DNA of 64,000 bases. Source: Streptomyces sp. CA-278952 (lineage in GTDB: Bacteria > Actinomycetota > Actinomycetes > Streptomycetales > Streptomycetaceae). The position numbers and the translations under genes were made by a program. Of this stretch, positions 47,165-63,567 are shown piece after piece. Below the pieces are notes generated by a model. It was not told the origin of the DNA. It worked only from the letters and a program-made list of their open reading frames with translations, and made no database searches. Within the stretch, counting starts at the first letter, position 1. Each line of letters begins with the position of its first letter. The stretch lies in contig NZ_CP112880.1 in assembly GCF_028747205.1 (NCBI RefSeq), positions 4,092,001 to 4,156,000 on the forward strand, read 5' to 3'.

Positions 47165-47170
47165 TACACT
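47165..47170 (+). promoter_or_regulatory. -10 box of the trpS leader promoter
   Basis: TACACT lies six bases before the leader-peptide ATG (47177), so transcription probably starts at or next to that ATG, giving a leaderless leader. Confidence 0.5.
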
Positions 47171-47176
47171 CGGCCC

Positions 47177-47273: not shown

Positions 47274-47292
47274 CGCTGCCCCCGCAAAGCGC

Positions 47293-47344
47293 TCTCGTAC
47301 GGCGTTCTCGTACGGCGTTCTCGTACGGCGTTCTCGTACGGCGC
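47293..47344 (+). repeat. 13-bp tandem repeat, four copies, in the trpS leader
   Basis: TCTCGTACGGCGT repeated four times between the attenuator terminator and the synthetase start. TACG-containing units can form short hairpins. No known role. Confidence 0.8.
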
Positions 47345-47425
47345 GGACACGGAGACGAAGCGCAGCGGCGCTCACCGGCGGGGCCGTCCTCCACGCACCA
47401 TCCACGCGAGGAGAGACCCGATCCC

Positions 47426-48565
47426 ATGACCAGCACCGCACCCAGCACCGGCACCGCACCCGGCACAGCGCCCGCCGCCACCGGCACGGCCCCCGCCCCG
47501 GCCGCCCCCACCGGGCTCCCCAGCGCCGAGCGCCACAGCGCCGGGCTTTCCAGCGCCGAGCTGGAGCGCCGCATCGCCCAGGACCCCGGAAGCTTCCGGG
47601 TCCTCACCGGGGACCGCCCCACCGGCCCCCTCCACCTCGGCCACTACTTCGGCTCCCTGCTCAACCGGGTCCGCCTCCAGGACCTCGGCGTGGACGTCAT
47701 GGTCCTCATCCCCGACTACCAGGTGATCACCGACCGGGACACCGCCGAGCGGCTGGGGGAGTACACCGACGGGCTGCTCCTGGACTATCTGGCCCTCGGT
47801 ATCGATCCCGCCCGGTCCACCGTCTTCTGCCACAGCGCCGTCCCCGCGCTCAACCAGCTCATGCTGCCCTTCCTCAGCCTCGTCTCCGTCGCGGAGCTGA
47901 ACCGCAACCCCACGGTCAAGGACGAGATCGCGTACTCACGGCAGTCCACGGTCAGCGGGCTGATGCTCACCTACCCGGTCCACCAGGCCGCCGACATCCT
48001 GTCCTGCAAGGGAAACCTGGTTCCGGTCGGCCGGGACCAGGCGCCCCACCTGGAAGTCACCCGGACGATCGCCCGCCGCTTCAACGAGCGGTACGGCGAC
48101 GTCTTCCAGGAACCGGACATCATGCTCTCCGCCGCGCCTCTGCTGCTCGGCACGGACGGTACGAAGATGAGCAAGAGCCGGGCCAACTCCGTACCGCTCG
48201 GCGCCACCGCCGACGAGACGGCTTGCCTCATCAAGGGCGCGACCACGGACGCCGACCGGCACATCACCTACGACCCCGACGCCCGCCCCAACGTCTCCTC
48301 CCTGGTGCTGCTGGCCGCCCTCTGTCTGGAGCGGGACCCGCACGAGGTCGCGGCGGAGATCGGCGACGGCGGAGCCGCCGCTCTCAAGCGGACGGTGACC
48401 GACGCGGTCAACAGCCACCTGGCCCCCTTCCGGGTCCGGCGGGCGGAGTACGCGAAGGACCTGACGTACGTACGGTCGGTGCTCCGCGCGGGCAACGAGC
48501 GGGCGAACGCACTGGCGGAGGCCACGCTGGACGAGGTGCGGGAGAAGATGGGCGCGTTCCGGTAA
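47426..48565 (+). CDS. trpS: Tryptophanyl-tRNA synthetase, auxiliary (TrpRS II-like) type
   Basis: 379-residue class I synthetase. HIGH is HLGH in RPTGPLHLGHYFGSL, and KMSKS is in GTDGTKMSKSRAN. The first 45 residues are low complexity (Ala/Pro/Thr). The core, such as RVLTGDRPTGPLHLGH, NPTVKDEIAYS and YPVHQAADIL, resembles the auxiliary TrpRS II group (Deinococcus, Streptomyces TrpRS1), which tends to resist indolmycin. The Trp-Trp leader peptide upstream fits this inducible form. ATG 47426 has GAGGAG about 11 bases upstream. Resistance itself cannot be read here. Confidence 0.93.
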   Translation: MTSTAPSTGTAPGTAPAATGTAPAPAAPTGLPSAERHSAGLSSAELERRIAQDPGSFRVLTGDRPTGPLHLGHYFGSLLNRVRLQDLGVDVMVLIPDYQVITDRDTAERLGEYTDGLLLDYLALGIDPARSTVFCHSAVPALNQLMLPFLSLVSVAELNRNPTVKDEIAYSRQSTVSGLMLTYPVHQAADILSCKGNLVPVGRDQAPHLEVTRTIARRFNERYGDVFQEPDIMLSAAPLLLGTDGTKMSKSRANSVPLGATADETACLIKGATTDADRHITYDPDARPNVSSLVLLAALCLERDPHEVAAEIGDGGAAALKRTVTDAVNSHLAPFRVRRAEYAKDLTYVRSVLRAGNERANALAEATLDEVREKMGAFR

Positions 48566-48658
48566 CGCGGTAGGCCGGGTAGCCGGGTAGGCCGGGTGCC
48601 GTCGGGCCTCCGCCCGCCCGGCGCCCCCTCTGCCCGGCCCCCTGCCGCCCCGCGCCCC

Positions 48659-50692
48659 CTACCGTCTCGGCGCCACCGGCCGCTGCCGCCGCAGCAGCTC
48701 CGCGAGCCCCCGGCGGGTGGCGGCGATCACCACCCGGTCCGTGGCGCGCAGGACGTAGCCGGGGTGCAGGTCCCAGACCAGTCCGGACGGCGGCGGCTCC
48801 GCGTCGCCGTCCGGGTTGTACGGCGGGATCGCGGCGAGGTCCGGGGTCCGGTCGGCCGGCGGGGTGGCGTCGATGGCCAGGACCCGCCAGGCGCCCGCGC
48901 GGAAGGCCTGCTCGACCGTGTGGCCCTCCAGCTGCGGGTGCCCCGCCGCCTCCAGGGCCGCGAACAGCATGACCTTGCGCTCGACCGGTATCGCGCCCAG
49001 GATCTGGCGGCCCATCATGGCGCCGGCGAAGGCCGGGGCGGCCAGGTGGGAGACGGAGCGGGAGCGGGTCAGGGCCCCGGGGTGCGCGGTGCGCAGGGTG
49101 CGGTAGACGGCGGTGGCGAACTCGTCGTCGTACAGCCGCAGCGCGACCCTGAGTTCGGGCTTCACCGAGCGGGCGTACAGCGCCGCTTCCAGGTTCGTGG
49201 TGTCGATGCTGGTGAGGGCGAGGAGAGCGCGGGCGCGGCGGATCTTGGCCGCCTCCAGGACGCCTTCCTGGGTGACGTCGCCAAGGACGGTCGGCACGTG
49301 CAAGGAGCGCGCCAGCGGGATGCCGCGCGCGTCGGGGTCCTCCTCGACGACGACCACGGGGACGTCGAGTTCGCGGAGCTGTACGAGGACGCGCGTGCCG
49401 ATCTTGCCGAGCCCCAGCAGCACCACGTGCCCCGACAGACCGCGCGGTGGGCGGCGCAGCGAGGAGGCGGTGCGCAGGGTGCCGAACGCCTCCAGTACGG
49501 CGGCGACCAGCAGGGGGAGCAGGAGGAGGCCGGCGACGCCGGAGAGGAGCTGGATGATCTGCCGGGCGTCCCTTTCGCCCTCGGCCGGGTCGCCCATCGC
49601 CAGCAGGTCGAGCAGGGTCAGGTGGGTGGAGTGCACCACGCTGTCCTCGGTGGTCACGACCGAGGCGATCACCAGGGCGACCACGGAGGCCGCGACCCCG
49701 AGGGCCGACCAGCGCAGCCTGCGGGAGAAGACCTGCGAGAGCGGGGCGCCCCTGCCGCCCATCCGGGTGGCCGGACGGGCCGGACCGGCCCGGCTGACCG
49801 CTTCGAGGACCACCGTGCCCCGGCCGGTCGCTGCGGCGACGGCGCTCGCGTCGGGCAGCAGTTGCGGGGCCTCGTCGCCGCTGCTGTCCGAACCCTCCGC
49901 GCCCGCCGGGTCGTTGGTGGTGGAGGAGAGCAGGGCGAGGGTGCACAGGCCGGGGTCGGCTGTCTCCCCCGAGCGCGGCGGTGGGCGTTCGGCGGCGCGC
50001 AGGAGCAGCCCCTCGGCCTGGATGATCTTGCTGCTGCCGGTGAGGGCGGTGGCGGCGAGGGCCGGGGCGGCGGTGTCGGCGTCGGACAGGACGGTGGTGG
50101 AGGCGTCCAGCAGTGCCGGGTCAATGCCGGGCATGGCGACGGCCGCCGCCTGGTCGAGCAGCTCCTCCAGGTGGAGCCCGAGCTTGCGGTTGTAGAGCCG
50201 GATCACCAGCCGCAGACGGGGGTTGAGGCGGCGGGCGGTCAGGGCGGCGCGGATGTTGCGCTCGTCGTCGTCGTAGACGAGCGCGAGGGCGGCGGCCCGG
50301 TCGACGCCCGCCTCCTCCAGTACGTCGTCGGACGGTTCGGGGGCCTCCATGATGCGGACGGCCTCGACCCCGGCGTTGGTGTCGCCGCTGCCGTCCCCGG
50401 CCGTCCCGTTGCTGTCGCCGCCCCCGGTCGTCCCGTTGCCGTTGCCCGCGCGGTTCATCGCCGCCGACATCCGGCCGAACAGGGCCGCCGCCCGCCCCCG
50501 TTGGGTCAGCGGCGTCTCCGGGCTGTTGGCGTCCCGGCCCGGGGGCAGGAGCAGGGTGACCCGTTCCCCGTAGACGTAGCGCAGCTCTACGGCGAGCCGG
50601 CGCGCCAGGGCGTCGTCACCGCAGACGATCATGTGGCCGGCCGACGGTGGGCGTCCCGGCTGCTGAGGAAGTGGAGGCACGAAACCCAGCAT
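48659..50692 (-). CDS. NAD-binding (RCK) membrane protein
   Basis: 677 residues. Two Rossmann NAD-binding domains: an N-terminal one starting HMIVCGDDALARRLAVEL, and a second with GHVVLLGLGKIGTRVLVQL, of the TrkA/RCK type. Between them are two transmembrane segments (WSALGVAASVVALVIASVV and LLSGVAGLLLLPLLVAAVLEAF), with a short intervening loop (TTEDSVVHSTHL) in place of a canonical K+ filter (TVGYG is absent). Such proteins gate potassium or other ion flow in response to NAD. ATG 50692 has AAGGA upstream. Its channel function is uncertain. Confidence 0.87.
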   Translation of the reverse strand: MLGFVPPLPQQPGRPPSAGHMIVCGDDALARRLAVELRYVYGERVTLLLPPGRDANSPETPLTQRGRAAALFGRMSAAMNRAGNGNGTTGGGDSNGTAGDGSGDTNAGVEAVRIMEAPEPSDDVLEEAGVDRAAALALVYDDDERNIRAALTARRLNPRLRLVIRLYNRKLGLHLEELLDQAAAVAMPGIDPALLDASTTVLSDADTAAPALAATALTGSSKIIQAEGLLLRAAERPPPRSGETADPGLCTLALLSSTTNDPAGAEGSDSSGDEAPQLLPDASAVAAATGRGTVVLEAVSRAGPARPATRMGGRGAPLSQVFSRRLRWSALGVAASVVALVIASVVTTEDSVVHSTHLTLLDLLAMGDPAEGERDARQIIQLLSGVAGLLLLPLLVAAVLEAFGTLRTASSLRRPPRGLSGHVVLLGLGKIGTRVLVQLRELDVPVVVVEEDPDARGIPLARSLHVPTVLGDVTQEGVLEAAKIRRARALLALTSIDTTNLEAALYARSVKPELRVALRLYDDEFATAVYRTLRTAHPGALTRSRSVSHLAAPAFAGAMMGRQILGAIPVERKVMLFAALEAAGHPQLEGHTVEQAFRAGAWRVLAIDATPPADRTPDLAAIPPYNPDGDAEPPPSGLVWDLHPGYVLRATDRVVIAATRRGLAELLRRQRPVAPRR

Positions 50693-50718
50693 GCCGTGAT
50701 CCTTCGGCTCGGTCTTCC

Positions 50719-50780
50719 CGGTCCGTGTGTCTTCCCGGTCCGTATGTCTTTGCGGTCCGAGTGTCTTTGCGGTCAGTGTG
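50719..50780. repeat. 17-bp tandem repeat between the RCK gene and giant ATPase gene
   Basis: CGGTCCGTGTGTCTTCC, CGGTCCGTATGTCTTTG, CGGTCCGAGTGTCTTTG and a partial fourth. The array touches the ATPase stop codon (50773) and precedes the RCK gene start. Confidence 0.75.
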
Positions 50781-53700
50781 GAGTGTCGGTGATCTCCGCG
50801 TGGTGCTCCGGAACCGCCCGGTCGTTCAGCGCGCCCACCGGTCCGTGGTGTCCGCCCGCCAGCAGGTGCCGGGGGTCCGCCGCGCGCTGGATCGCCGCCT
50901 CGACCGCCGCGATCCGGTCCGCGAGCAGCCCGAGCGCGGCCACCGCCCTCGTCATGGGGTCGCCGTCCGGGCCGCCGAGCGCCTGCGTGCGGACGTAGGA
51001 CGCGGTGATCGCCGCCCACCGTTCGGCCTGTTCGGCGGTGAGCGTCCCGCGCAGGGCGGCCAGCTTGAGGAGATTCGCCTCGGCCCCCGTGGTGAGCGTC
51101 TGGGCCTCGCCGGCGTAGTGGTCGTCGACGACGGCGGACAGCTCGTCGTCGTTCATGACGGGCACGATCCGCTCGGCGATCTTGTTCATGTTGCGGTAGG
51201 AGCCCTGGAGCCGGAACGGCGGCTCGGTGCGCGTGGCGTCCGTCCGCGCGGCCGAGGCGATGTACGCCGCGTTCACCGCGAGCACGGTGTCCCGGGCCGT
51301 GAGCAGATGGCGCAGCACCGCCAGGATCCGGTCCAACTCCGCAGCGCTGTACGGGTGGTCCATGTGCTCCGCGCGCGCCGCCGGGTCGCTGCCGCCCGCC
51401 AGCCGCACCAGCAGCGCCAGGTCGTCCCGGGACCGGGCGGCCAGCGGGGCGAGGACCGGGTTGGCGGTCAGGGCGTTCTCCACGAAGCTCAGCGCGAAGA
51501 CGTCGTCCCGGCCGCTGAGGACCTCGCCGAGGTTCCAGACGTCGGCCCGGTTGGCGAGCATGTCGGGGATCCGGAACTGTTCGCCGGACTCGGTGTACGG
51601 GTTGCCCGCCATGCACACCGCGAACCGCTTGCCGCGCAGGTCGTAGCTGCGCGGCTCGCCGTCCCGCACGCCCTCGATCCGGCGTGTGGCGTCGCACAAC
51701 GGGATGAACTTCTGGAGCAGCTCGGGCGAGGTGTGCTGGATGTCGTCGAGGTAGAGGAGGGTGTTGTTGCCCGCCTCCAGCGCAAAGTTGATCTTCTCGA
51801 TCTCCTGCCGGGCGGTGGCGCTCGGGGCCCGGGTCGGGTCGAGGGAGGTCACGTCGTGGCCCAGGTTCGGCCCGCTGATCTTGACGAGCACCATGCCGAG
51901 CCGCTCCGCGACGTACTCCATCAGCGTCGTCTTGCCGTAGCCGGGCGGCGAGACGAGCAGCAGCAGCCCCTGCGAGTCGGTGCGCCGGTCGGCGTCGGCG
52001 GTGCCGAGCTGCTTGGCAAGGCTGTCGCCGATCAGCGGCAGGTACACCTCGTCGAGCAGCCGGTTGCGGACGAAGGCCGACATCACGCGCGGCCGGTGGT
52101 CGTCCAGCCGCAGCCGTCCGCGCTCGGCGGTCACCAGGGAGGTGCGCAGCCGCTGGTAGGCGCGGAAGCCGGGCACGGTGTGCGCGCGGAACGCGGCGGT
52201 ACGGGCGAGGAGTTCGTCGATCCGTACGGTGAGGGCCCCGCCGCCCTCGATGCGCGGGTGGTCGCCGAGGAGGCCCTCCAGGCGCTCGGTGAGCGGCGCG
52301 TCGCTCGCGTACCGCTCCAGCTCCGGGCAGAGCTCCACCGCCACGGCCTCCGCCAGGTCGCCGCCGCCGAGACCGGCTCCGCCGCAGGCCCCCGCCGTCT
52401 CGGCGTACGGGGCGAGCCAGCCCTCCACGAGCTGCCGGCGGGCGGCCTGGTCGTCGCCCAGGGCCGCCAGGTCCTCGGCGTACGCGTCAGGGCCGACCGC
52501 CCGGTGGAAGGCCTCCAGGAAGGCGCGGACCGAGGAGCCCACGACGAATCCGGCGGGCCCGGTGGTCAGCTCATCGAAGAGGTACGCGGCGACGGCGTGA
52601 CCCGGCGCGGACGGGCACGGGGAGCCGATCGCCGCCGCCCACTCCCCCTGGAGCACCGCGATGGCCGGGGCGAGCCCGAAGGTGTCGCGGGCACGCGCCA
52701 GCGAGACCGCGCGCCTGGTCCAGGAGGTGCGCAGCGGGTCGTCGGCGTCGTACACCCAGAAGAGCTGGGCCGCCGCGCGGACGGCGGGCTCGTGGCGCAG
52801 CAGCCCCGCGTCCGCGTGCAGGCGCAGCAGTGCGGCCAGGATCGCGGTGGCATCCTCGTCGTGGACGCCCCGCGTGTACCCCTCGTCGTACGCATCGGAA
52901 GCTGACTCCCGCACGAGACGCGCCAGTTCGGGATCGGCCAGCGAGGCGAGGTGTCCGGCCCCGTGCTCGTCGAGGAGGCGGGCGGCGAGGTGCTCGGCGC
53001 GGTAGACGGAGGCGTTCTCGGAGGGGAGCAGCTGCTCCCAGTACGGCCGGGCCGCCGCGAACGCCGGGTCGGTGACCGGGGCCCGGTAGTCCGTCCCGGT
53101 CAGCGCGAAGGCGAGGCTCTCCCCTGCGGGCACGAGCGTCAGGTCGAACGGCTGGGTGTTCACCGCGAACCGGTGGCGGCCCAGCTTGATCACGGAGCCG
53201 CCGTCTGCGTACAGCTCGGTGCGGTCGCGCAGGGCGCGGCCGGCCTCCTGGCGGGCCGCCTTCAGCCGCCCGTCCAGCTCCTCCGCCCGTACGGGGTCGC
53301 CCAGTTCACGCAGCTCGTCGGCGGTCCGGCGGACCTTGGCGACCATCGGGTCGGAGGCGAAGTAGGTGTGGACGGCGTCGAGGTCCTCCAGCGAGGCCAG
53401 TCGCCGGGCGATGGTCTCCAGCACCCGGCCCGCCGACCCGGCCAGCCGCTCCGCGCGCCGCGCCCGCTCGTCCTGGAGGGTCTGCTTGCGCGCCGAGAAC
53501 GCCTCGTACACCTCGGTGCGGCGCTCGGCCAGCTCGGCGAGGAAGTCGTCGAACTCCGCGAACCGCGACTCCAGGTTCTCCCACTGGAGCAACAAGCGAG
53601 CTAGTTGGTCGTCACATGTCTCCGGGGTGTCGGCAGCGGACAGCGCGCCCGTCACCGCCTGTCCGAGCAGCGCGAACTCGGCGGCGAACTCGGCCCGCCC

Positions 53701-55827
53701 CTCCTTCGACAGCAGCTCCCGGCGGCGTGCGTCGAGCGTGGCGCGGGCCCGGTTCGCACCGCCCAGCACCTCCGCGATCCGCTCCAGGATCGACGTACGG
53801 ACGGTGGCGTCGCCGATGTCGAGACCGGCGACGACATCCGTGACGGTGGCCAGCCCCTCCGTCATCGCCGACAGCCGGTCGGTCACGGCGGATGCGTCCC
53901 GGACGGTCTCCAGCGCACCCGCGTCGGCCACGAGCCCCGCGATGTCCTTGTGATACCCGTCGAACGCGTCCTCGCGGGCGAGGAACGACACGGCCCGCTG
54001 GGCGGCCGATGCGATGTCGTCCTCGGTCCGGGCCGACAGTTCCGCGACGCGCTCGACGTCGGCGTACCGCATCTCGCCGACCGTCGCCAAGTGGCCGTGC
54101 GCCCGGCGGAGTTCGGTCAGCCGCTCGATCCAGGCGGAAGCCGACCCGGGAGCCTCGCCGCGCACCCGGCGCACCAGTGCGGTGATGCGGGCGGCGGTCT
54201 CCTCCAGCGCGTCGGCGGCGCGCCGGGTCAGCTCCTGTACGGCGGTGAACTCGGCCAGCACCTGCTGCGCGGTGACCCGCAGTTCGCGCAACGGTTCGTC
54301 GAGCGCACCCAGTTCGGGGTCGGACAGCCAGTGATACCGGTCCTGGGCACGGGCGCAGTCGGCCGCGAGCCGGCCGTAGACAGCGGTCGTCGGCGTCATG
54401 TCCCGTACGCCGTGGGCGAGGGCGAGGCAGTCGGAGATCCCGCGTACCAGGTCGGCGTTGCCGGTCCGGGCGAGCGGGCCGGTCCCGGCGGGCCGGGCGG
54501 CGGCGTAGGTGTCGGAGACGTACGGGGTCTCCCAGCGCTGCAAGGGGTGCACGCGCGCGGGCCCGTCCGGGGCGTCCCGGAGCAGGACCAGCGTCCCGTC
54601 GTCCAGCAGGGCGTGCCCGCGCCCGGTGAGCGGGGTGGCGACCTCCTGACGGATCAGGTTGTACGGGAGCAGGAGGCTGCGCAGCCCGTCGCGGGAGCGG
54701 AAGACGTAGAGCACGTCCTCCCCGTTGGGCGAGCGGACCGCGCCCTCGAAGACCGGCTCGGTCAGCTCCTCGGCGGTGTCGAAGGTCTTCGCGGTGCCGG
54801 TGGTGAGGTAGTAGCCGCCGGGGAAGATGATGCCCTGGTCCTCGGGGAGCCGGTGGCAGGACGGGCCGATGCCGTCGAGCCGCTGGACGGTGGCGAGCAG
54901 CGAGTTGAAGACCAGGTGCCGCCAGGCGTCCTCCTTGTACGGGCGGACGCGCAGCAGCACCAGCGGCCCGACCTCCGCGTACTCGACGTCGGCGTCGGCC
55001 AGCGACTGCAACGGCTCGTCGACGGGCTCCTCGTAGATCCCGTCCGGCGACTCCGTGTCGTCGGTGACCTTGACGGTGAGGGTGCCGCCGAGCGTGTCGA
55101 CGAAGAGCCCGCCGCCCTTGCCGACGGCGATGTGCGGATGGCGTCCCGGGACGTGGGCCTCGCGCCCCGCCACGATCCACGCGAAGTCGTGGGAGGGCGG
55201 GAAGACGTGGTCGCGCTCGCCCTGCGCGTCGAGGAACGCCCCCGGCGACCCGTCCGGCCCCAGCGCCCAGCGCAGCACCCGGATGTCGTCGGCGTTCTCG
55301 CCGGTCCGGAAGACGGCGAGGAGCCTGCCGTCGACGCGGCGTAGCCGCAGCAGGCGGGCGTCGCGGAAGTAGCGGTGGAGGGAGGCGAACTCGCGCCGGA
55401 AACCGTCGTCGTCGAGGAGGGCGGTCTCCGCACCGGTCTCCGCACCGGACTCCGATGCCGGGGCGTCGTCCGCCGGGGCGGAGTCCCGTACGAGGAGGAC
55501 GTCCTCGACCTCGGCCTCGCCGCGCGCGCCCGGCCCGCGCTCGAAACCGAAGAGCAACTGGTCGCCCACCGCGACGAGGTCACGCGGCACGGAGGCCCGC
55601 TCGGTGCGCACCTGCTCGGTGGCCAGCAGCCGCAGCCCGGTCGAGCCGAACTCCTCGGTCCGCCGTACGTTGAGCGCCTCGGCCCGCCGCACCAGCTCCC
55701 CGGCCTGCGCCGAGAGCCGCCGCCGCAGCACCTCGTAGGCACCGGTGTCCACGTCGTCGGCGGCGCTCGGGGTGTTCTGCGGCGCGGTGGCGGTGGCGGT
55801 GGTGGTGGCGGTGGTGTCGCTGTCCAT
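50773..55827 (-). CDS. Giant DUF3686-type AAA+ ATPase ('DNA repair ATPase')
   Basis: 1684 residues. The N-terminal third is mixed beta (YEVLRRRLSAQAGELVRRAEALNVRR and a propeller-like part). A long coiled-coil or helical middle (about 500-900) follows, with many Arg/Glu/Leu heptads. The C-terminal AAA module has Walker A SPPGYGKTTLMEYVAE and Walker B TLLYLDDIQHTSPELLQKF, plus GEPRSYDLRGKRFAVCMAGNPYTES. The combined domains match the DUF3686 ATPase family, called DNA-repair ATPases only by annotation. It follows flotillin and a YqiJ-like protein on the same strand. ATG 55827 has GGGAG upstream. Function unknown. Confidence 0.85.
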   Translation of the reverse strand: MDSDTTATTTATATAPQNTPSAADDVDTGAYEVLRRRLSAQAGELVRRAEALNVRRTEEFGSTGLRLLATEQVRTERASVPRDLVAVGDQLLFGFERGPGARGEAEVEDVLLVRDSAPADDAPASESGAETGAETALLDDDGFRREFASLHRYFRDARLLRLRRVDGRLLAVFRTGENADDIRVLRWALGPDGSPGAFLDAQGERDHVFPPSHDFAWIVAGREAHVPGRHPHIAVGKGGGLFVDTLGGTLTVKVTDDTESPDGIYEEPVDEPLQSLADADVEYAEVGPLVLLRVRPYKEDAWRHLVFNSLLATVQRLDGIGPSCHRLPEDQGIIFPGGYYLTTGTAKTFDTAEELTEPVFEGAVRSPNGEDVLYVFRSRDGLRSLLLPYNLIRQEVATPLTGRGHALLDDGTLVLLRDAPDGPARVHPLQRWETPYVSDTYAAARPAGTGPLARTGNADLVRGISDCLALAHGVRDMTPTTAVYGRLAADCARAQDRYHWLSDPELGALDEPLRELRVTAQQVLAEFTAVQELTRRAADALEETAARITALVRRVRGEAPGSASAWIERLTELRRAHGHLATVGEMRYADVERVAELSARTEDDIASAAQRAVSFLAREDAFDGYHKDIAGLVADAGALETVRDASAVTDRLSAMTEGLATVTDVVAGLDIGDATVRTSILERIAEVLGGANRARATLDARRRELLSKEGRAEFAAEFALLGQAVTGALSAADTPETCDDQLARLLLQWENLESRFAEFDDFLAELAERRTEVYEAFSARKQTLQDERARRAERLAGSAGRVLETIARRLASLEDLDAVHTYFASDPMVAKVRRTADELRELGDPVRAEELDGRLKAARQEAGRALRDRTELYADGGSVIKLGRHRFAVNTQPFDLTLVPAGESLAFALTGTDYRAPVTDPAFAAARPYWEQLLPSENASVYRAEHLAARLLDEHGAGHLASLADPELARLVRESASDAYDEGYTRGVHDEDATAILAALLRLHADAGLLRHEPAVRAAAQLFWVYDADDPLRTSWTRRAVSLARARDTFGLAPAIAVLQGEWAAAIGSPCPSAPGHAVAAYLFDELTTGPAGFVVGSSVRAFLEAFHRAVGPDAYAEDLAALGDDQAARRQLVEGWLAPYAETAGACGGAGLGGGDLAEAVAVELCPELERYASDAPLTERLEGLLGDHPRIEGGGALTVRIDELLARTAAFRAHTVPGFRAYQRLRTSLVTAERGRLRLDDHRPRVMSAFVRNRLLDEVYLPLIGDSLAKQLGTADADRRTDSQGLLLLVSPPGYGKTTLMEYVAERLGMVLVKISGPNLGHDVTSLDPTRAPSATARQEIEKINFALEAGNNTLLYLDDIQHTSPELLQKFIPLCDATRRIEGVRDGEPRSYDLRGKRFAVCMAGNPYTESGEQFRIPDMLANRADVWNLGEVLSGRDDVFALSFVENALTANPVLAPLAARSRDDLALLVRLAGGSDPAARAEHMDHPYSAAELDRILAVLRHLLTARDTVLAVNAAYIASAARTDATRTEPPFRLQGSYRNMNKIAERIVPVMNDDELSAVVDDHYAGEAQTLTTGAEANLLKLAALRGTLTAEQAERWAAITASYVRTQALGGPDGDPMTRAVAALGLLADRIAAVEAAIQRAADPRHLLAGGHHGPVGALNDRAVPEHHAEITDTPH

Positions 55828-55880
55828 GGGTACGGCTCCCTACGTGTTCCATCGTCTTCAGCCGGCCCGGCACCCCCAGC

Positions 55881-56254
55881 CCGTCCGGCGTTTGAGGACG
55901 GAACCGTGCGGCCGGTGGTCCCGCCTCCTGGCGTGCGGGGGCGGGCCCGGGATTCCAGCCGGTCCGGCGTTTGAGGACGGAACCCTCGGCTCGGTGAGCC
56001 AGCCCTGACGGGCAGACCGGTCCCTGGTGCGCCCGCCCCCGTGGGACGCACACCCAGTCCGGTGGCCCCCGGGCCAGGGGTTCCGTCCTCAAGCGCCGGA
56101 CGGGCTTGATGTGGCCGCCCTCGTTCGGTCCTGGGCCCCCGGGCCGAGGGTTCCGTCCTCAAGCGCCGGACGGGCTGGGAGTGGCCGAGGGCTTGTCCTC
56201 AAGCGGCGGACGGGCTGGGAGTGGCCGAGGGTTCCGTCCTCAAGCGGCGGACGG
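55881..56254. repeat. Cluster of six Streptomyces hairpin repeats
   Basis: 21-base units at 55881-55901 and 55960-55980 (plus orientation) and 56083-56103, 56153-56173, 56193-56213, 56234-56254 (minus orientation). The consensus is CCGTCC, a nine-base loop such as GGCGTTTGA, then GGACGG. This fills the 438-base gap between the ATPase and flotillin genes, which holds no other gene that I can see. Confidence 0.85.
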
Positions 56255-56265
56255 GGTGGCGTGCG

Positions 56266-58416
56266 CTACCCGAGCGCCCCGGCCCCGGCCCCCGCCCCCG
56301 CCCCGTTCCGGGAGGCGGTCGTGGCCGCCGGAGCCACCGGCGTACCGGTCGTCAGCGACGACACCGGCAGATCCGCCAGCCCCAGCTCCTTCGCCGCCGC
56401 CAGCAACTGCTGCACCTGCCCCGACGCCGCCCCCGACGCCCCCGGCCCCATCAGCCGCATCAGCAGCGCCGACACCGTCAGGTTCTGGACATCGCCCGTG
56501 GAGAAGGATCCCAGCACCCGGCTGATGTCGTCGGTGAAGGACGACGAACCGTCCAGCCACGGCCCCGCCAGCGCCTGCGCGGTCCGCGAGTTGTCGACGA
56601 ACCCGTCCACCGCCTTGCCGAGCGAGATCGACGAGACGAGCCGGTCGAAGAAGACCGAGTCGCCGCCGACGATGTCGATGTCGGCGTTCTCCAGGCCCGT
56701 CGCCAGGATCGTCGCCTGTGCCTCGGCGACCTGCCGCTGCACGTCGAGACCGGCCAGCCGGATCTCCTTCTCCGCCTCCAGCCGCAGCCGGTACTCCTCG
56801 TGCCCGCGCGACGCCTCGTCCAGCGCCGCCATCGCGGCCGCCTTGTCCGTGAGCCCCGCGGCCTCCGCCTTCAGCTTCTCGCCGATGACCGCCGCGTCGG
56901 CGGTCGCCTGGGCTGCGGTGCCCTCCGCCGTGGCGAGCGCCTTGAGCCGCGAGCCCTCCGCCTCGGCCTTGAGCCGGGCCGCCGTCGCCCCGGCCTCCGC
57001 GAGACCGGCCTTCTCGGTGACGTCCGCCTCCGCGTCCGCCACCTGTACGGCGGCGAGCCCGGGAGCGGCCGTCTCGGCCTGGATGCCCTCGGCGAGCCGC
57101 AGCTTGGCCTGCGCGTCGAGGTCTGCGGTCTTGAGCCGGGCCTCGGCGAGCGTGAGCTGCTCGGCCGCCAGGTGGGTGGAGGCCGCCTCCGCGGCCTCGG
57201 CCGCCTTGATGTCCTTGACCAGCTTCTCCTGGGCCTCCGCCTCGGCCGCGATGATGACCGACCTGCGGGACCGCTCGGCGTCCTCGACGGCGCGCAGGGT
57301 GAGGATCGACTCCTCCTGCTCGGCGACCGTGCGGTCCACCGCGATCCGCTCCCGGATGACGTCGGCGACCTCGCGGCGCTCGGCCTCGACCTCCTTCATG
57401 GCGGCGATCCTGTTCAGCTCGGTCTCGCGCTCGCGCCCGATGACCTCCAGCATCCGGTCCTTCTCGATGCGCTCGCTCTCGACGGCGATGACGCGCTCGC
57501 GGTTCTTCTGCGCGACGGCGATCTCCCGCGCCTGGTTCTCGCGCTGGATGCCGAGCTGCTCCTCGGTCTTGATGAACGCCGTCTGCGAACCGAGCCGCTC
57601 CTCCTCCTGCACCCGGGCGGTGGCCGCCTCCTCGCGGGCCCGCAGGACCTCGACCTCGCGGCGCTGCTTGATCTCCGCCTCGGCCTGCCGGCGCTCCAGC
57701 TCCAGGATCGTCTCGCGGGCGTCGACGTCCTGCCGGGTGATCTCCTTCTGCTCGGTGCGCTGGAACTCGTTGGTCCGCACGTGCTCGATCGCGGTCAGCT
57801 CGGTGATCTTCCGGATGCCCTGGGCGTCCAGGATGTTGGCCCCGTCGAGCTGGGCCATCGGGGTCTGCTCGAGGAAGTCGATCGCGGCGTCGTCGAGGTG
57901 GTAGCCGTTCAGGTCGGTACCGATGACCTGGATGATCCGGTCGCGGAACTCCTCGCGCTTGGTATACAGGTCGACGAAGTCGAGCTGCTTGCCGACGGTC
58001 TTGAGTGCCTCGGAGAACTTCGCGGCGAAGAACTCCTGGATGGCGACCTTGTCGCTGGCCCGTGCCGTGCCGATGGACTGCGCGACCTTGATGACGTCCT
58101 CGACGGTCTTGTTGACCCGGACGAAGAAGGTGATCTGGATGTCGGCGCGGATGTTGTCCTGGCAGATCAGACCCTCGCGCCCGGCACGGCGGATCTCGAT
58201 CGTCTTCACCGAGATGTCCATCGTCTCGGCCTTGTGGAGCACGGGCAGGACGACGGCTCCGGTGAAGGTGACGTCGACCTTCTTGGTCTTGGAGATGATC
58301 AGTGCTTTGCCCTGCTCGACCTTGCGGAACAGCCGGGTGATGACGAAGGCGATGGCGATGACGATGAGCAGGACAACGGCGATGAGCACGCCGATGCCCA
58401 AGGAGATGGCATCCAT
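56266..58416 (-). CDS. Flotillin-like SPFH/Band 7 protein (YqiK type)
   Basis: 716 residues. A single N-terminal membrane helix (IGVLIAVVLLIVIAIAFVITRLF), then an SPFH domain (GKALIISKTKKVDVTFTGAVVLPVLHKAETMDIS, RIIQVIGTDLNGYHLDDAAIDFLEQT), then a long coiled-coil rich in Glu/Arg/Ala (about 220-560) and a Gly/Ala-rich tail. Flotillins form membrane microdomain scaffolds. Upstream and co-directional is a YqiJ-like membrane protein, as in the enteric yqiJ-yqiK pair; downstream is the DUF3686-type ATPase. ATG 58416 has AAGGA upstream. Confidence 0.92.
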   Translation of the reverse strand: MDAISLGIGVLIAVVLLIVIAIAFVITRLFRKVEQGKALIISKTKKVDVTFTGAVVLPVLHKAETMDISVKTIEIRRAGREGLICQDNIRADIQITFFVRVNKTVEDVIKVAQSIGTARASDKVAIQEFFAAKFSEALKTVGKQLDFVDLYTKREEFRDRIIQVIGTDLNGYHLDDAAIDFLEQTPMAQLDGANILDAQGIRKITELTAIEHVRTNEFQRTEQKEITRQDVDARETILELERRQAEAEIKQRREVEVLRAREEAATARVQEEERLGSQTAFIKTEEQLGIQRENQAREIAVAQKNRERVIAVESERIEKDRMLEVIGRERETELNRIAAMKEVEAERREVADVIRERIAVDRTVAEQEESILTLRAVEDAERSRRSVIIAAEAEAQEKLVKDIKAAEAAEAASTHLAAEQLTLAEARLKTADLDAQAKLRLAEGIQAETAAPGLAAVQVADAEADVTEKAGLAEAGATAARLKAEAEGSRLKALATAEGTAAQATADAAVIGEKLKAEAAGLTDKAAAMAALDEASRGHEEYRLRLEAEKEIRLAGLDVQRQVAEAQATILATGLENADIDIVGGDSVFFDRLVSSISLGKAVDGFVDNSRTAQALAGPWLDGSSSFTDDISRVLGSFSTGDVQNLTVSALLMRLMGPGASGAASGQVQQLLAAAKELGLADLPVSSLTTGTPVAPAATTASRNGAGAGAGAGALG

Positions 58417-58571
58417 TGAAGAGTCCTTGGCGGCTTGTCGGTACGGAGAGGGAACAAGCGAAGTAGAGGTGGCCTGCCTGTCACGGGGGCGGGCGGCCGG
58501 TGGGCGGCGACGACGGTGGTACCCGAAGGCTTGAAGTCCTGGTGGCCCGGTGGCCCGGTGGCCCGTCCGGG

Positions 58572-59267
58572 TCAGCCGGTCGCCCCGCCCGGCAGTTCGT
58601 GCGGTCTGGCGCTCGGACCCGGATCGAGCGCCGCGTCATAGGGCGAGACCCAGAAGAACTCGCCGTCCTCGTCGTACGCGTAGAGCAGTCCGGAGCCGCC
58701 CATGACCAGCGGTGCTTCTTCGGCGGCCGGGCCGGAGAGCCGGGAAGCGGACGGGAACGGTCCGGCCGTGCGGACCTGCACGATGGCCGTCGATCCGTCG
58801 TGCGACACGACCTCGGCCTGGCCGAACGTGGCGGTGACGGAGCCCGTGCGGATCGTGCAGACACTTCCGACGAAGTCCAGCCGCGATGGCGGAGGTTCCG
58901 CCGGGAAGTACCGGCGGAAGCGGTGGACGAGGAGGCGGACGGCCGCCCAGGCGAGGAACAGCGACCCGGCGAGTACGGCGACGGAGAGCACGGCGCGGGT
59001 GGCGCTGCCGGTCTCGCTCCGGTGCAGCAGGACCGTGCCGGTCACGCTGCCGAACCAGGCGAAGACGACCAGCAGGGAGACGGAGACGGAGACAGGGACG
59101 CCGCCGAGACCGGCCGGGCCGGTGTCGAGATCCGCGTCGAAGGAGTCGTGGCCGGCGGCCCCGGCGAGCACCAGCAGCCAGAAGCAGACGACGACCACCA
59201 GAGCGGCGCCGAAAACGACGGCGGGGAATCCGAGTGTCGCGCTCAGGAATTCGCCGATCGGTCCCAC
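58572..59267 (-). CDS. YqiJ-like membrane protein (NfeD/OB-fold type)
   Basis: 231 residues with three transmembrane regions (GFPAVVFGAALVVVVCFWLLVL, VSVSLLVVFAWFGSVTGTVLL, LSVAVLAGSLFLAWAAVRLL) and a C-terminal beta-rich soluble domain (VGSVCTIRTGSVTATFGQAEVV, AIVQVRTAG). The arrangement resembles enteric YqiJ (DUF1449), the NfeD-like partner of flotillin YqiK. Its gene is 155 bases upstream of flotillin on the same strand. GTG 59267 is the likely start but has only a weak binding site. Family assignment is by order and pattern. Confidence 0.7.
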   Translation of the reverse strand: MGPIGEFLSATLGFPAVVFGAALVVVVCFWLLVLAGAAGHDSFDADLDTGPAGLGGVPVSVSVSLLVVFAWFGSVTGTVLLHRSETGSATRAVLSVAVLAGSLFLAWAAVRLLVHRFRRYFPAEPPPSRLDFVGSVCTIRTGSVTATFGQAEVVSHDGSTAIVQVRTAGPFPSASRLSGPAAEEAPLVMGGSGLLYAYDEDGEFFWVSPYDAALDPGPSARPHELPGGATG

Positions 59268-59684
59268 CCCCTGCGGTTCTGCGCACGGGCCCTGAGGCGG
59301 TGCGCGTCCGTGTGATTCGGCACGGGGGCGGCGAGCGGTCGCTCGGCGGGCGGGTGGCGAGGCTCGGCGCCGCGGCGTTGTCCGAACCTGCCGCGGCGGC
59401 CGGAACGCCCCTCGGGACTCCTCCCGCCGGATCCCGGATCCCGGGCCCTGGACCGTCCCCGATCCCCCGTGGACGGTCCGGCACCCGGGATCCGGAAGGG
59501 GCTTCCGCCCCCGTGCTCCCCCGTGCTTCCCCCGTGTTGTTGCTGACCTGATCGTGTCATCCGACACCGGCCCAGCGCATTGCCGGAACCCGGCAATCTA
59601 TACGCTTCGCTCATGCCGGGCACCGGCACCGCCCCGTGTGCGTCGGGGAAATGACAAGACTGTTGCAAGGCTGAAGGAGAGTGC
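59268..59684. other. 417-base intergenic region
   Basis: Holds the divergent promoters of the YqiJ-like gene and the PucR gene. The only structure seen is the inverted repeat at 59579-59597 with a possible -10 box (TATACG, 59599-59604). I see no gene or RNA. Confidence 0.6.
59579..59597. promoter_or_regulatory. Inverted repeat upstream of PucR-type gene, candidate operator
   Basis: ATTGCCGG and CCGGCAAT around AAC form an eight-bp inverted repeat, directly before a possible -10 box TATACG. It likely binds the adjacent PucR-family protein or another regulator; PucR autoregulation is common. Confidence 0.5.
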
Positions 59685-60758
59685 GTGGCCGAGCTGAGGA
59701 TTCCCGAGGAAATGCTGGGCAATTATGCCCACATTCTGGGCGAAGTCGCCCTCACCGGCCGTCGCTTGACCCGCGACGAACTGGAAGCTCGCCGTGCGCT
59801 GGGCCGTGCGGCGGCGGACGCGGGTCATCAGCTCCGCGCTCTGGTGACGATGCATCTGGCACAGACTCGTGAGTCCTGGCCACGAGGAGCTGCCGGAAAC
59901 TCCCCCGCCACGACCGACGCCGTTCTGGCCGCTGTGGAGCAGGCGGTCGACGCCTTCGCCGAGGGCTTCGAGCGTGCCCAGCGGCTCACCGTGCGACGGG
60001 AGGAGGCGGCGCGCCGCGAGTTCATCGACGACCTGCTCTACGGGCGCAGCGATCTGGTGCGCCTCGCGGAGCGGGCGACCCGCTTCGGCCTGCGGCTTTC
60101 CCGGGCGCACGCGGTGGCAGTGGCGGCCGGCCCGGAGGCGTACACGGAGACGGACGCGGTGCCGCGCAGTGTGGAGGCGGCGCTGCTGGCGCGGTTCAGC
60201 GGCCGCAAGATCCTGTTGACGACGAAGGACGGCCGGATCGTCTGTATCGCACCGGGCAGTCAGCCCGACGTCCTGCGCTACTTCGCCAAGCAGGCGCACG
60301 CGGCGACGGACGGCGGCCAGGTCGCGGTCGGCCGCCCGCACAAGGGCCCCGGCGGGGTGGTCCACTCGTACGACGAGGCGCTCGAAGCCCTCGACCTCGC
60401 GGGCCGGATGGGGATGGACGACCCCGTGCTGTACGCCTCGGACCTCATGGTCTACCCGGTGCTGACCCGGGACCGGCAGGCGATGGCCGATCTGGTGCGC
60501 AGTGAGCTGGGCCCGCTCCAGAAGGCCCGGGGCGGCGCGGAACCGCTGCTGAACACGCTGGCGGTCTACTTCGACGCGGGCTGTGTCGCCGCCGAGACCG
60601 CCCGCCGACTGGCGTTGAGCGTGCGGGCGCTGACGTACCGCTTGGAGCGCATCCACCAGTTGACCGGGTCCGACCCTTCGGATCCGATGCACCGCTACAC
60701 CTTGCAGACGGCGGTCATCGGGGCCCGGCTGCTGGACTGGCCGGCCAAGGAGCTGTGA
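59685..60758 (+). CDS. PucR-family transcriptional regulator
   Basis: 357 residues with an N-terminal helical sensor-like domain (about 1-110), a central GGDEF-like fold typical of CdaR/PucR proteins (LDLAGRMGMDDPVLYASDLMVYPVL), and the C-terminal helix-turn-helix PucR domain: LLNTLAVYFDAGCVAAETARRLALSVRALTYRLERIHQLTG, with the usual DP and YTLQTAVIGARLL end. The GTG at 59685 has AAGGAGAG (59673-59680) four bases before; a second GTG at 59681 is out of frame. Ligand and targets unknown. Confidence 0.93.
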   Translation: MAELRIPEEMLGNYAHILGEVALTGRRLTRDELEARRALGRAAADAGHQLRALVTMHLAQTRESWPRGAAGNSPATTDAVLAAVEQAVDAFAEGFERAQRLTVRREEAARREFIDDLLYGRSDLVRLAERATRFGLRLSRAHAVAVAAGPEAYTETDAVPRSVEAALLARFSGRKILLTTKDGRIVCIAPGSQPDVLRYFAKQAHAATDGGQVAVGRPHKGPGGVVHSYDEALEALDLAGRMGMDDPVLYASDLMVYPVLTRDRQAMADLVRSELGPLQKARGGAEPLLNTLAVYFDAGCVAAETARRLALSVRALTYRLERIHQLTGSDPSDPMHRYTLQTAVIGARLLDWPAKEL

Positions 60759-60806
60759 CGGACGGCCGCCCGGCGGAGGAACGTGGGGGCGGGGGACGGA
60801 AGGTGT

Positions 60807-60843
60807 GGCCGGGGGTGCTCAGGGGGGTGACGCACCCCCGGCC
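60807..60843. terminator. Terminator hairpin between convergent PucR and TerB genes
   Basis: Twelve-bp stem (60807-60818 with 60832-60843) and a 13-base G-rich loop, between the stops at 60758 and 60915. Confidence 0.65.
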
Positions 60844-60914
60844 TGCCGGTGGGGAGGGGACGCGGGCCGATGGTCTGCCGGCCCGAGCGACCGCACCGGC
60901 GGTCCTGGTGGGCC

Positions 60915-61370
60915 CTACAGGTCGAACTCGTGCGGCGGCAGGTCGAGCGCGAAGCACGCCTCCCGCACGACGGCCTGCTCGGACGGGTCGAAGTCGCCGT
61001 CGGCGCCGCCGATGACGATGCCGATCTGGACCACGGCACGGGCCTCGGTCGGCTTCTTCTTCGCCTTGGCGATCTCCTGGAGGACGTTGACCTTGCCGAA
61101 CGCGAAGTCGGCGGTGAGCTGGTCGACGTAGGCGTTGAAGCGGCGCTGGAGGTCGTCCGCGGGGAAGTTCCGCAGGACGTCGTTGGTCGAGATGAGGGTG
61201 GCGACGCGCTGACGCTCCGACGGGTCGATGGAGCCGTCGGCGGCGGCGACGAGCGCGCACATGGCCATGCTCGCGTCCCGGAACGACCCCGACTTCAGGT
61301 CGTTCTTCTTCGCCTCCAGCTGCGTCTGCATCGACGACGCGGATTCTTTGATGCGATCCCACAGAGCCAT
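60915..61370 (-). CDS. TerB-family tellurite-resistance/stress protein
   Basis: 151-residue all-helical TerB-domain protein. Two acidic metal-binding loops are visible: ADGSIDPSERQRV and ADGDFDPSEQAVV, with DxS and DxD patterns that bind calcium or other metals. In clusters TerB works with TerD and vWA proteins; here it stands alone, though a vWA protein is at 30445. ATG 61370 is the start. Role in stress inferred from family; tellurite resistance itself unproven. Confidence 0.92.
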   Translation of the reverse strand: MALWDRIKESASSMQTQLEAKKNDLKSGSFRDASMAMCALVAAADGSIDPSERQRVATLISTNDVLRNFPADDLQRRFNAYVDQLTADFAFGKVNVLQEIAKAKKKPTEARAVVQIGIVIGGADGDFDPSEQAVVREACFALDLPPHEFDL

Positions 61371-61493
61371 GACGTCTCCCTACGTTGCGGTGCGAATCCG
61401 GGACCGGAACCGGAACGGGTGCAACTCTACAGGCGTGTAGATATCGATGATGGGGTGCGGGGTGCCTTCGCGGAGAAGCCTCGGACACGGCGA

Positions 61494-61526
61494 AGCCCCC
61501 GGACGCGGTGAGGGCATCCGGGGGCT
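61494..61526. terminator. Terminator hairpin after the antiporter operon
   Basis: Ten-bp perfect stem (61494-61503 with 61517-61526) just after the antiporter stop at 61563, minus strand. Confidence 0.7.
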
Positions 61527-61562
61527 CCGGCGGGGGTTGCGAGCGACAGGGCCGCAAGGCGG

Positions 61563-62876
61563 CTACTCGCGCGTCTCGCCCGCCGGTTCGGGGGTGAGGT
61601 CGTCGTGTGACGCCAGTCGGCGCTCGGGAGCGGACTTCGCGGGGGGCTCCTTCTCCGCGCCGCTCGCGCCCTGGCTCTTCCCGCCGCCGACGTGGTCTCC
61701 GTCTCCGTCGCCGTCGCCGCCGGCGCGACGGGCCTCGATCTTCGCCGCGAGGGGCTGCGTCCACCGGGCGGTGAGCGGGCCGACGATGACGAGGATCAGG
61801 ACGTACGCGGTGGCGATGGGGCCGATGCGCGGCTCGGTGGCCACGGCCAGACCGGCGATGACGATGGAGAACTCACCGCGCGCCACGAGGGTGCCGCCCG
61901 CCCGCCAGCGGCCGCGCGAGCCGATCCCGGCGCGCCGGGCCGCGTAGTAGCCGGTGGCGATCTTGGTGAAGATGGTGACGATGGCCAGCAGGGCCGCGGG
62001 CAGCAGCACCGGCGGGATGTCGGCCGGGTTCGTGGAGAGCCCGAAGAAGACGAAGAACACGGCGGCGAACAGGTCCCGCAGCGGGGTGAGCAGCTTGCGG
62101 GCGCCCTCGGCGACCTCGCCGGAGAGCGCGATGCCGACGAGGAACGCGCCGACGGCCGCGGACACCTGGAGCTGCTGGGCGACTCCGGCGACGAGGACGG
62201 TGAGGCCGAGGACGACCAGGAGCAGCATCTCCGGGTTGTCGGAGGAGACTGCGCGGCTGATCAGGCGGCCGTGGCGGAGCGCCAGGTAGAGGACGAACCC
62301 GACGGCGCCGAGCGCGATCACGAGCGCGAGGCTGCCGCCGGCCAGGCTGACCCCGGCGAGCATGGCGGTGAGCAGCGGCAGGTACACCGCCATCGCCAGG
62401 TCCTCCATGACGAGGACGCCGAGGATGACGGGTGTCTCGCGGTTGCCGAGCCGGCCGAGATCGGTCATGACCTTGGCGATCACCCCGGACGACGAGATCC
62501 AGGTGACCCCGGCGAGCGCGACCGCGCCCACGGGGCCCCAACCGAGGATCAGGGCCGCGACGGCGCCGGGCGTCGCGTTGAGCACGAAGTCCACGGCGCC
62601 GGACGGGTACTGCGTCTTCAGGCTGGTGACCAGCTCGGACGCGCTGTATTCGAGCCCCAGCAGGAGAAGCAGCAGGATGACGCCGATCTCGGCGCCCACC
62701 GCGGTGAACTCTTCGCTGGCCTTGAGCGGAATCAGCCCGCCGTGTCCGAACGCCAGCCCGGCGAGGAGGTAGAGCGGGATCGGGGAGAGGCCTATCCGCC
62801 CGGCGAACCGTCCCACGAGCCCCAGCCCGAGGATGACGGCTCCCAGCTCCACCAGCAACGCAGTCGTGTCATGCAC
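61563..62876 (-). CDS. Cation/proton antiporter (CPA2, KhtU-like)
   Basis: 437 residues with about 12 transmembrane helices: DTTALLVELGAVILGLGLVGRFAG, GHGGLIPLKASEEFTAVGAEIGVILLLLLLGLEYS, and LGNRETPVILGVLVMEDLAMAVYLPLLTAML, which carries the acidic residues of the CPA2 core. It exchanges potassium or other monovalent cations for protons. The C-terminal about 55 residues are charged (KIEARRAGGDGDGDGDHVGG). The preceding gene on this strand, two bases upstream, encodes a TrkA-C-type regulator, so this is a KhtTU-like pair. Confidence 0.92.
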   Translation of the reverse strand: MHDTTALLVELGAVILGLGLVGRFAGRIGLSPIPLYLLAGLAFGHGGLIPLKASEEFTAVGAEIGVILLLLLLGLEYSASELVTSLKTQYPSGAVDFVLNATPGAVAALILGWGPVGAVALAGVTWISSSGVIAKVMTDLGRLGNRETPVILGVLVMEDLAMAVYLPLLTAMLAGVSLAGGSLALVIALGAVGFVLYLALRHGRLISRAVSSDNPEMLLLVVLGLTVLVAGVAQQLQVSAAVGAFLVGIALSGEVAEGARKLLTPLRDLFAAVFFVFFGLSTNPADIPPVLLPAALLAIVTIFTKIATGYYAARRAGIGSRGRWRAGGTLVARGEFSIVIAGLAVATEPRIGPIATAYVLILVIVGPLTARWTQPLAAKIEARRAGGDGDGDGDHVGGGKSQGASGAEKEPPAKSAPERRLASHDDLTPEPAGETRE

Positions 62877-62878
62877 GG

Positions 62879-63349
62879 TCAGCCCTCCGCAATGATCTCG
62901 GAGAGCGCGTCGACGCCCTCACGCGTACCGACGGCGACGAGTGTGTCCCCGATGGCCAGTCGAAAATCCGGTTCCGGCGACGGGTGCGCGCTGTGGGTGC
63001 GCAGCACCGCCACGATGGACGCCCCGGTCCGAGTCCGTGCCCGCGTCTCCCCCAGCAGCCGCCCGCCGTACGGGGAGCGGGACCCGAGCGGGATGTGCTC
63101 GGTGACGAGGTCGATGCCATCGGTCCGTACGGCGTCGATGGGCGCCGCATCGATGAGGTGCGCGAGCGCGGTGGCCTCGGACGTCGACAGAGGGACGGAG
63201 AGTTGGCACGAATCAGGATCGTCCTGTTCGTAGAACCCGATGAACCGGCGACCGTCGTTGTGGACGACGACCGAAATGTGCTGGCCCGTCTCGGTCGTGA
63301 AGTCGTACTGAGCACCCACTCCGGGCAGTGACGTGCGGCGGGTTCCCAT
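62879..63349 (-). CDS. Antiporter regulatory subunit with TrkA-C domain (KhtT-like)
   Basis: 156 residues. The N-terminal half (GVGAQYDFTTETGQHISVVVHNDGRRFIGFYEQDD) is a small beta domain; the C-terminal half is a TrkA-C domain (GASIVAVLRTHSAHPSPEPDFRLAIGDTLVAVGTREGVDALSEI). The order and the two-base gap to the antiporter gene match KhtT-KhtU of Bacillus, where the TrkA-C protein gates the antiporter. ATG 63349 has GGGAGGAAG upstream; the longer frame to 63385 is not needed. The nucleotide that it senses is unknown. Confidence 0.9.
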   Translation of the reverse strand: MGTRRTSLPGVGAQYDFTTETGQHISVVVHNDGRRFIGFYEQDDPDSCQLSVPLSTSEATALAHLIDAAPIDAVRTDGIDLVTEHIPLGSRSPYGGRLLGETRARTRTGASIVAVLRTHSAHPSPEPDFRLAIGDTLVAVGTREGVDALSEIIAEG

Positions 63350-63567
63350 GGCTTCCTCCCGAGACGTGCGGCGGTGCGCGCGCACTTGGCGATCTCTTTA
63401 TCCGGCCATGACCTTATCGGGCGGCGAAAATCCGCCTGGGGCCGCGGCCGGAAGCCGTACGGGCACGTATGACGGAGTGCTCCCACGAGCCACCGCCGTG
63501 GTCGGCCTCGCCGCCCTGGCCGAGAATCGCCCTGGTCGTTCGGTTCGCGTACGCGGGAGGGGATGGG

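Follow-up and report, generated by a model that had tools for sequence, protein, structure and literature searches.

A conserved flotillin-DUF3686 ATPase operon of Streptomyces with a putative palindromic operator: a candidate membrane-microdomain machine

The genome of Streptomyces sp. CA-278952 (GCF_028747205.1, a single contig of 8.2 Mb) carries, within the 64,000-nucleotide stretch analysed here (NZ_CP112880.1, positions 4,092,001 to 4,156,000; hereafter the window), three minus-strand genes encoding a YqiJ-like membrane protein, a YqiK-type flotillin and a DUF3686-type ATPase of 1684 residues, their open reading frames and domains being present as the first-pass annotation of this DNA had claimed. 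These genes form a strongly conserved unit. We judge it rather probable that the operon encodes a membrane-microdomain machine, representing a PspA-unlinked Streptomyces form of an envelope-stress operon that is switched by a PucR-type regulator through a palindrome and responds to ionic or osmotic stress. Most bacterial flotillins have neither a clear job nor a clear energy source, and a flotillin-ATPase unit accompanied by a predicted operator, a regulator and ion-transport genes offers a concrete and genetically simple test of microdomain function. The three genes and the relevant parts of the ATPase gene are as follows, with coordinates counted from the first letter of the window.

58572..59267, minus strand: YqiJ/NfeD-like membrane protein, 231 amino acids from a GTG, start uncertain
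56266..58416, minus strand: YqiK-type flotillin (SPFH protein), 716 amino acids, ATG start; assigned by YqiK alignment, topology and conserved position
50773..55827, minus strand: DUF3686/DUF7902/AAA+ ATPase, 1684 amino acids, ATG start; open reading frame and Pfam domains
54331..55698, minus strand: part coding DUF3686, residues 44-499, probable beta-propeller; Pfam range, AlphaFold2 model and moderate fold matches
51043..52089, minus strand: part coding the AAA+ domain, about residues 1247-1595, predicted to be NorQ/CbbQ-like

Conservation of the three-gene unit

Conservation was assessed on 117 loci, all selected for the presence of the ATPase: 80 stretches from named genomes (the best 80 of at least 591 pattern-matching stretches, 584 of which were confirmed), nine of the 12 plasmid places found, 27 further genome stretches and the window. 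They comprise 29 Streptomyces, nine other actinobacterial and 79 non-actinobacterial loci, and the neighbourhood counts rest on 107 of them, nine having been left out for too little flank and one (L140) for a split ATPase frame. The first-pass annotation had staked its proposal on a conserved neighbourhood in other genomes, and one was found: in 107/107 loci the ATPase gene is preceded, within 6 kb and on the same strand, by a flotillin gene, and in 101/107 by a YqiJ-like gene too. The flotillin gene usually adjoins the ATPase gene directly, the exceptions being L055 (about 2.0 kb between them) and L056 (about 3.4 kb). Since the loci were chosen for the ATPase, these counts show that the ATPase accompanies flotillin and not the converse; E. 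coli has YqiJ and YqiK without the ATPase.

The co-occurrence survey that the same annotation had recommended found ATPase and flotillin together in both genome sets, one of 61 relatives (37 of the same genus, the source genome included, and 24 outside it) and one of 296 genomes across the phylum. DUF3686 is present in 20 of the relatives, and the flotillin profile matches all 20 plus one extra genome (E 5.6e-4, profile positions 397-545), a match that is counted as spurious; within the genus, flotillin occurs in 20/20 genomes with the ATPase versus 0/17 without it (Fisher p 6e-11, kinship ignored). Across the phylum, the ATPase was found in eight genomes and flotillin (E 1e-20 or better) in the identical eight. 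Over 101 loci, the pairwise distances of the three proteins (ATPase, flotillin and YqiJ) correlate far above label permutations, partly because the hosts share ancestry.

The ATPase is found in 20/37 Streptomyces genomes, at different chromosomal places and on plasmids, where tblastn recovered it over 94-97% of its length in 12 plasmid records, the hosts being Streptomyces, Nonomuraea, Deinococcus, Pseudomonas, Proteus, Hymenobacter, Halomonas, Photobacterium and Vibrio. A Proteus mirabilis record listed as a plasmid (L036, NZ_OL790812.1) is, at 4.09 Mb, chromosome-sized. Such patchiness, varied location and plasmid carriage would suit an anti-phage defence system, as the first-pass annotation had suggested, and so would the presence of paFlo3, the SPFH gene of a Pseudomonas aeruginosa operon discussed below, in only 2/10 other Pseudomonas species (PMC13086221). 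We nevertheless hold a defence role to be very improbable: PADLOC returned nothing beyond weak IetA matches (E 0.0035 and 0.0057) over about 30 residues around the P-loop of the AAA domain, in an analysis where the flanks were not systematically scanned for defence genes, and SPFH genes including paFlo3 are near-universal in the P. aeruginosa and P. paraeruginosa genomes analysed (99.5-100%; PMC13086221).

Domain architecture of the ATPase

In the ATPase, Pfam matches PF12458 (DUF3686) at residues 44-499 (E 1.2e-177), PF25472 (DUF7902) at residues 620-704 and AAA/AAA_5 at residues 1289-1412. The AlphaFold2 model of the DUF3686 part (pLDDT 90.1) gave moderate fold matches, and this part is probably a beta-propeller. 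After alignment of 115 long relatives, 102 were left once redundant ones had been removed. The positions of Walker A, Walker B and the sensor and arginine-finger candidates hold an identical residue in 71/71 sequences; the Walker B motif is D-D instead of D-E, and N1409, R1427 and R1545 are presumably the sensor and arginine-finger candidates. A scaffold with an ATP-driven partner, as the first-pass annotation had it, is a natural reading.

The closest relatives among the 120 listed are 88-93% identical, those with an organism label being from Streptomyces, and most of the named ones bear the label 'DNA repair ATPase'. A role in DNA repair would find some backing in RuvB, which matches the protein in sequence (E 5e-5, far below the cut-off) and takes ranks 1-4 in Foldseek when sorted by E-value (4e-6 to 1.4e-5). 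The sequence similarity is, however, confined to the P-loop part, the TM-scores to the target are 0.34-0.37 for the RuvB rows versus up to 0.63 for NorQ and up to 0.53 for CbbQ, and a membrane scaffold gene is linked to the ATPase in 107/107 loci. These data suggest that the database name is misleading, and a DNA-repair function seems to us extremely improbable.

In the VIA fold search with the AAA+ domain, rows 1-9 are all NorQ or CbbQ, and RuvB is missing from the 50 rows displayed, which excludes nothing. The predicted structure suggests a NorQ/CbbQ-like domain and raises the idea of a maturation chaperone that would activate membrane enzymes or transporters kept in a flotillin domain, or insert them, transporter genes being found nearby. 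Compared with NorQ/CbbQ (MoxR-type AAA+ proteins), the window ATPase has about 15% identity and a huge N-terminal extension, and a gene for a vWA partner, a feature of NorQ/CbbQ systems, was not noticed near the operon, no search having been aimed at it. Fold similarity is no proof of function, and no client gene shared across phyla was found, the five seed proteins treated below having matched in Streptomyces loci only; a chaperone of this kind therefore appears quite unlikely.

The flotillin, the YqiJ-like protein and the intergenic gap

The window flotillin aligns with E. coli K-12 YqiK at 27% identity over 445 positions (E 8e-31) and has a single N-terminal hydrophobic segment and a coiled coil that is judged from sequence only. 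It has no Pfam match even at E 10, and Band_7 matches 3/20 aligned flotillins; the protein is too divergent for the Pfam SPFH model. Against solved structures, its profile matched QmcA only (E 0.0028, profile positions 360-448). The YqiJ assignment is the weakest among the three genes and draws on topology, position and a match between profiles. Upstream, the frame stays open as far as 59567, and the protein has three hydrophobic 19-mers (Kyte-Doolittle); its sole Pfam match is DUF1345, below the cut-off, while NfeD matches 1/20 aligned YqiJ-like proteins (E 0.0024). The YqiJ-like profile matches E. coli YqiJ (probability 82.6, E 1e-5) and gave no match among solved structures.

Flotillin and ATPase genes are separated by a repeat-bearing gap of 438 bp, which is likely spanned by a putative single transcript. 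A 23-base element, CGTCCTCAARCGCCGGACGGGCT, occurs in the window in seven copies with up to three mismatches, at 55878-56257 and at 21200-21222, against 0.00 expected from shuffles; six of the seven sit between the flotillin and ATPase genes, in both orientations.

Relationship to known systems and to PspA

The first-pass annotation had regarded the operon as the best local candidate for an undescribed system, a claim that does not hold. Ravi et al. (2024, PMC11237479) print this operon type with and without PspA, with the same three kinds of protein and an AAA+ protein combining coiled coil and propeller, and report that the short operons without PspA are the more widely distributed. The DUF3686 name, a PucR-type regulator, the palindrome and the cation-transporter link are not found in main-text passages of that paper, and the term 'DUF3686' was not found in the literature searched, mostly non-subscription papers. 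The window operon is thus an added member of a printed system, and its regulatory and genomic setting in Streptomyces is new.

A second relative has mutant phenotypes. The bac operon of P. aeruginosa (bacABCDEF) comprises YjfI, PspA, a short NfeD, the SPFH protein PaFlo3, bacE and bacF (PMC2587700, PMC10948618). RT-PCR shows its genes to be co-transcribed, loss of bacA or bacB causes biofilm and rhamnolipid defects, and its PspA rises after hyperosmotic shock but not after heat shock (PMC2587700, PMC10948618, PMC13086221). A DUF3686 ATPase of 1746 amino acids, belonging to a cluster of 3222 sequences and 46% identical to that of the window, is found in P. aeruginosa; synteny with other Pseudomonas suggests that it is the product of bacE. 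The gene order is that of the window operon, and on this synteny the two operons appear to be the same system, which would tie the bac operon to a machine ranging from Streptomyces and Deinococcus to Bacteroidota. Unlike the window operon, the bac operon includes YjfI and PspA, and a sigma-54 site has been proposed for it (PMC2587700, PMC10948618). The pairs yqiJ-yqiK of E. coli and yuaF-yuaG of B. subtilis (SPFH2/NfeD2) likewise have an NfeD-like gene followed by a flotillin gene (PMC2636767); unlike the window operon, yqiJ-yqiK has no ATPase gene downstream.

The window operon is of the short form, with no YjfI (CesT/Tir) or PspA profile match in 46001-64000, and the source genome has two PspA genes, both outside the window. 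YjfI and PspA adjoin the operon in 39/107 loci, with PspA alone in one and both further off in four. On the plasmid pQBR103 (L035 1016-6140), the triad directly follows a cluster of YjfI-PspA-rhomboid-DUF2491-DUF350-DUF1190-glutathionylspermidine synthase, as if two of the PspA operon types in PMC11237479 had been joined. In 21 loci, a gene cluster lies downstream of the ATPase, and the two members scanned have a PLD-like domain.

The link to PspA raises the question of whether the ATPase acts like Vps4, mainly disassembling ESCRT-III-like PspA polymers at flotillin-marked membrane, with the Streptomyces PspA encoded elsewhere. The 39 loci with adjoining PspA and YjfI, the two PspA genes of the source genome and the occurrence of PspA in 60/61 relatives fit such a role; ESCRT-analogous roles have been suggested for these operons, with PspA encoded elsewhere for the short ones (PMC11237479), and in B. 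subtilis PspA needs an SPFH protein to reach the membrane (PMC8581546). On the other hand, fewer than half of the loci have a linked PspA, against 107/107 for flotillin, PspA is also present in 40/41 relatives lacking the ATPase, and ATPase distances track flotillin better than PspA, a comparison in which the shorter length of PspA may lower its correlation. We regard the Vps4-like role as unlikely. The notion that a second PspA copy is tied to the operon was dropped as unconvincing, two PspA matches being present in 8/20 genomes with the ATPase versus 3/17 same-genus genomes without it.

The palindrome and the PucR-type regulator

Upstream of the operon, the following features were recognised, none of which the first-pass annotation had mentioned.

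59579..59597, no strand: palindrome ATTGCCG-N5-CGGCAAT, putative operator, 19 bp, sole genome copy at up to 1 mismatch
59685..60758, plus strand: divergent PucR-type regulator, GGDEF_2 + HTH_30 (Pfam domains), 357 amino acids

The palindrome was found from a 10-base word common to 10/12 intergenic regions. When up to two mismatches are allowed, 29/29 Streptomyces loci have it in the 1400 bp ahead of the flotillin frame, made up of 12 discovery loci and 17 held-out ones (17/17); for two of the discovery loci, L129 and L146, the initial excerpt was empty or did not contain the palindrome. Control palindromes with shuffled arms were found in a mean of 0.08 and a maximum of 1 of the 29 regions, and at L139, the sole non-Streptomyces locus in that set, the palindrome was not found. 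Its arms are held across loci and its spacer is variable. Nine more copies are present elsewhere in the Streptomyces loci (539 kb). At up to one mismatch, it occurs once in the source genome and in 33/61 relative genomes (a backward control pattern in 6/61), including 18 of the 20 with the operon, 16 of them at the operon itself.

The PucR-type regulator gene adjoins the operon in divergent orientation. A relative is present in the flanks of 23/29 Streptomyces loci and 0/9 other actinobacterial loci, in some Streptomyces loci about 9 kb downstream and not divergent. A palindrome regulon is not described in the titles and abstract openings returned by searches, mostly of non-subscription literature, for PucR, Streptomyces and flotillin and for BacE/PA3728; the palindrome and PucR setting of the operon in Streptomyces is new. 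An antisense open reading frame at 59598-60692 (minus strand) is taken as a shadow of the PucR gene, because the relative at L031 is annotated on the PucR strand.

Ion-transport genes near the operon

Genes for ion transport, also unmentioned in the first-pass annotation, flank the operon on both sides.

48659..50650, minus strand: TrkA_N-domain protein resembling potassium channels, directly downstream of the ATPase; start uncertain
61563..62876, minus strand: CPA2-type Na+/H+ exchanger (PF00999, Pfam), without a palindrome in front
62879..63385, minus strand: TrkA_C-domain protein adjoining the exchanger (domain match)

A gene for the channel, a CPA2 exchanger or NhaA is present in the fetched flanks of 16/29 Streptomyces loci. 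The K+ channel gene, which at E 1e-40 is mostly single-copy, is found no more than 25 kb from the ATPase gene in 9/20 genomes versus 0.125 expected, and NhaA in 6/20 versus 0.22, on expectations that assume an 8.4-Mb genome and ignore kinship, and with arrangements that differ between genomes. PF00999 exchangers, at 2-15 per Streptomyces genome, are far commoner than the channel. Matches to the five seed proteins (regulator and transporters) are confined to Streptomyces loci, with 0/79 in non-actinobacterial ones, so that the ion-transport link is a Streptomyces feature. The palindrome precedes 4/6 exchangers of one type, a seventh, partial copy being left out. One palindrome copy lies about 0.65 kb before a K+ channel gene away from the operon (G019:C1 4338507), and another about 1.4 kb past the 3' end of a K+ channel gene in a genome lacking the operon (G036:C2 2325190).

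A small regulon is conceivable, if doubtful, in which PucR, at the palindrome ATTGCCGG-N3-CCGGCAAT, would couple the flotillin-ATPase machine to K+/Na+/H+ transport, with the ATP-driven scaffold directly controlling or maintaining the transporters as a bacterial counterpart of the control of channels by stomatin.

A model for the microdomain machine

Gene order, co-occurrence, domain make-up and motif conservation are directly established. Known SPFH proteins form membrane-bound cages (PMC11260169, PMC12048511), and in the microdomain model the window flotillin, aided by the YqiJ/NfeD-like protein, would assemble with it into such a cage, providing a membrane scaffold. The ATPase, with its propeller, coiled coil, helical domain and AAA+ motor, would be the dedicated cytosolic partner of the flotillin, docking on the cage via propeller and coiled coil, somewhat like FtsH with HflK/C, and using ATP to remodel the scaffold or the proteins gathered there. 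PspA would be a facultative helper, its gene being linked to the operon in some Proteobacteria but not here. The PucR-type regulator probably switches the operon through the 19-bp palindrome, and the machine may work with monovalent-cation transporters, its trigger probably being ionic or osmotic membrane stress.

Besides the RuvB ranking and the length of PspA given above, several points weigh against this model. That the proteins form a complex, that ATP drives remodelling and that PucR binds the palindrome are steps that we infer, as is the stress sensed in Streptomyces. Deletion of PaFlo3 in P. aeruginosa costs about 20% of the biofilm, and SPFH proteins have been termed largely dispensable (PMC2587700, PMC10948618, PMC13086221). 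As for the transporters, the palindrome precedes 2/9 channels, where it is shared with the operon (L031) and with an exchanger (L141), and it was not found before the window's own K+ channel or exchanger gene, before 6/6 exchangers of the window's type or before 6/6 NhaA genes. The transporter families were picked after their recurrence had been noticed in the same loci, and the proximity counts treat related genomes as independent. The palindrome also occurs in 7/17 operon-less Streptomyces and in 8/24 genomes outside the genus, so that the regulator, supposing that it acts as one, must have further targets. Finally, YqiJ was undetected in 6/107 loci, all from Streptomyces (L033, L128, L134, L137, L138 and L145). 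In these, no more than about 550 bp separate the palindrome from the flotillin frame, and tblastn of the gaps with three YqiJ proteins gave only weak matches, possible remnants, at E 0.036 (L138) and E 0.88 (L145); given the short gap and the weakness of the matches, the loss of YqiJ is probably real, leaving flotillin and ATPase as the core.

Operon copies within single genomes

Two genomes have two copies of the operon each. In G185, the ATPase frame is split into 600 and 999 amino acids in one copy (L140) and measures 1644 amino acids in the other (L141), and in both copies of G239 (L142 and L143) the flotillin is in two frames and the ATPase frame is whole.

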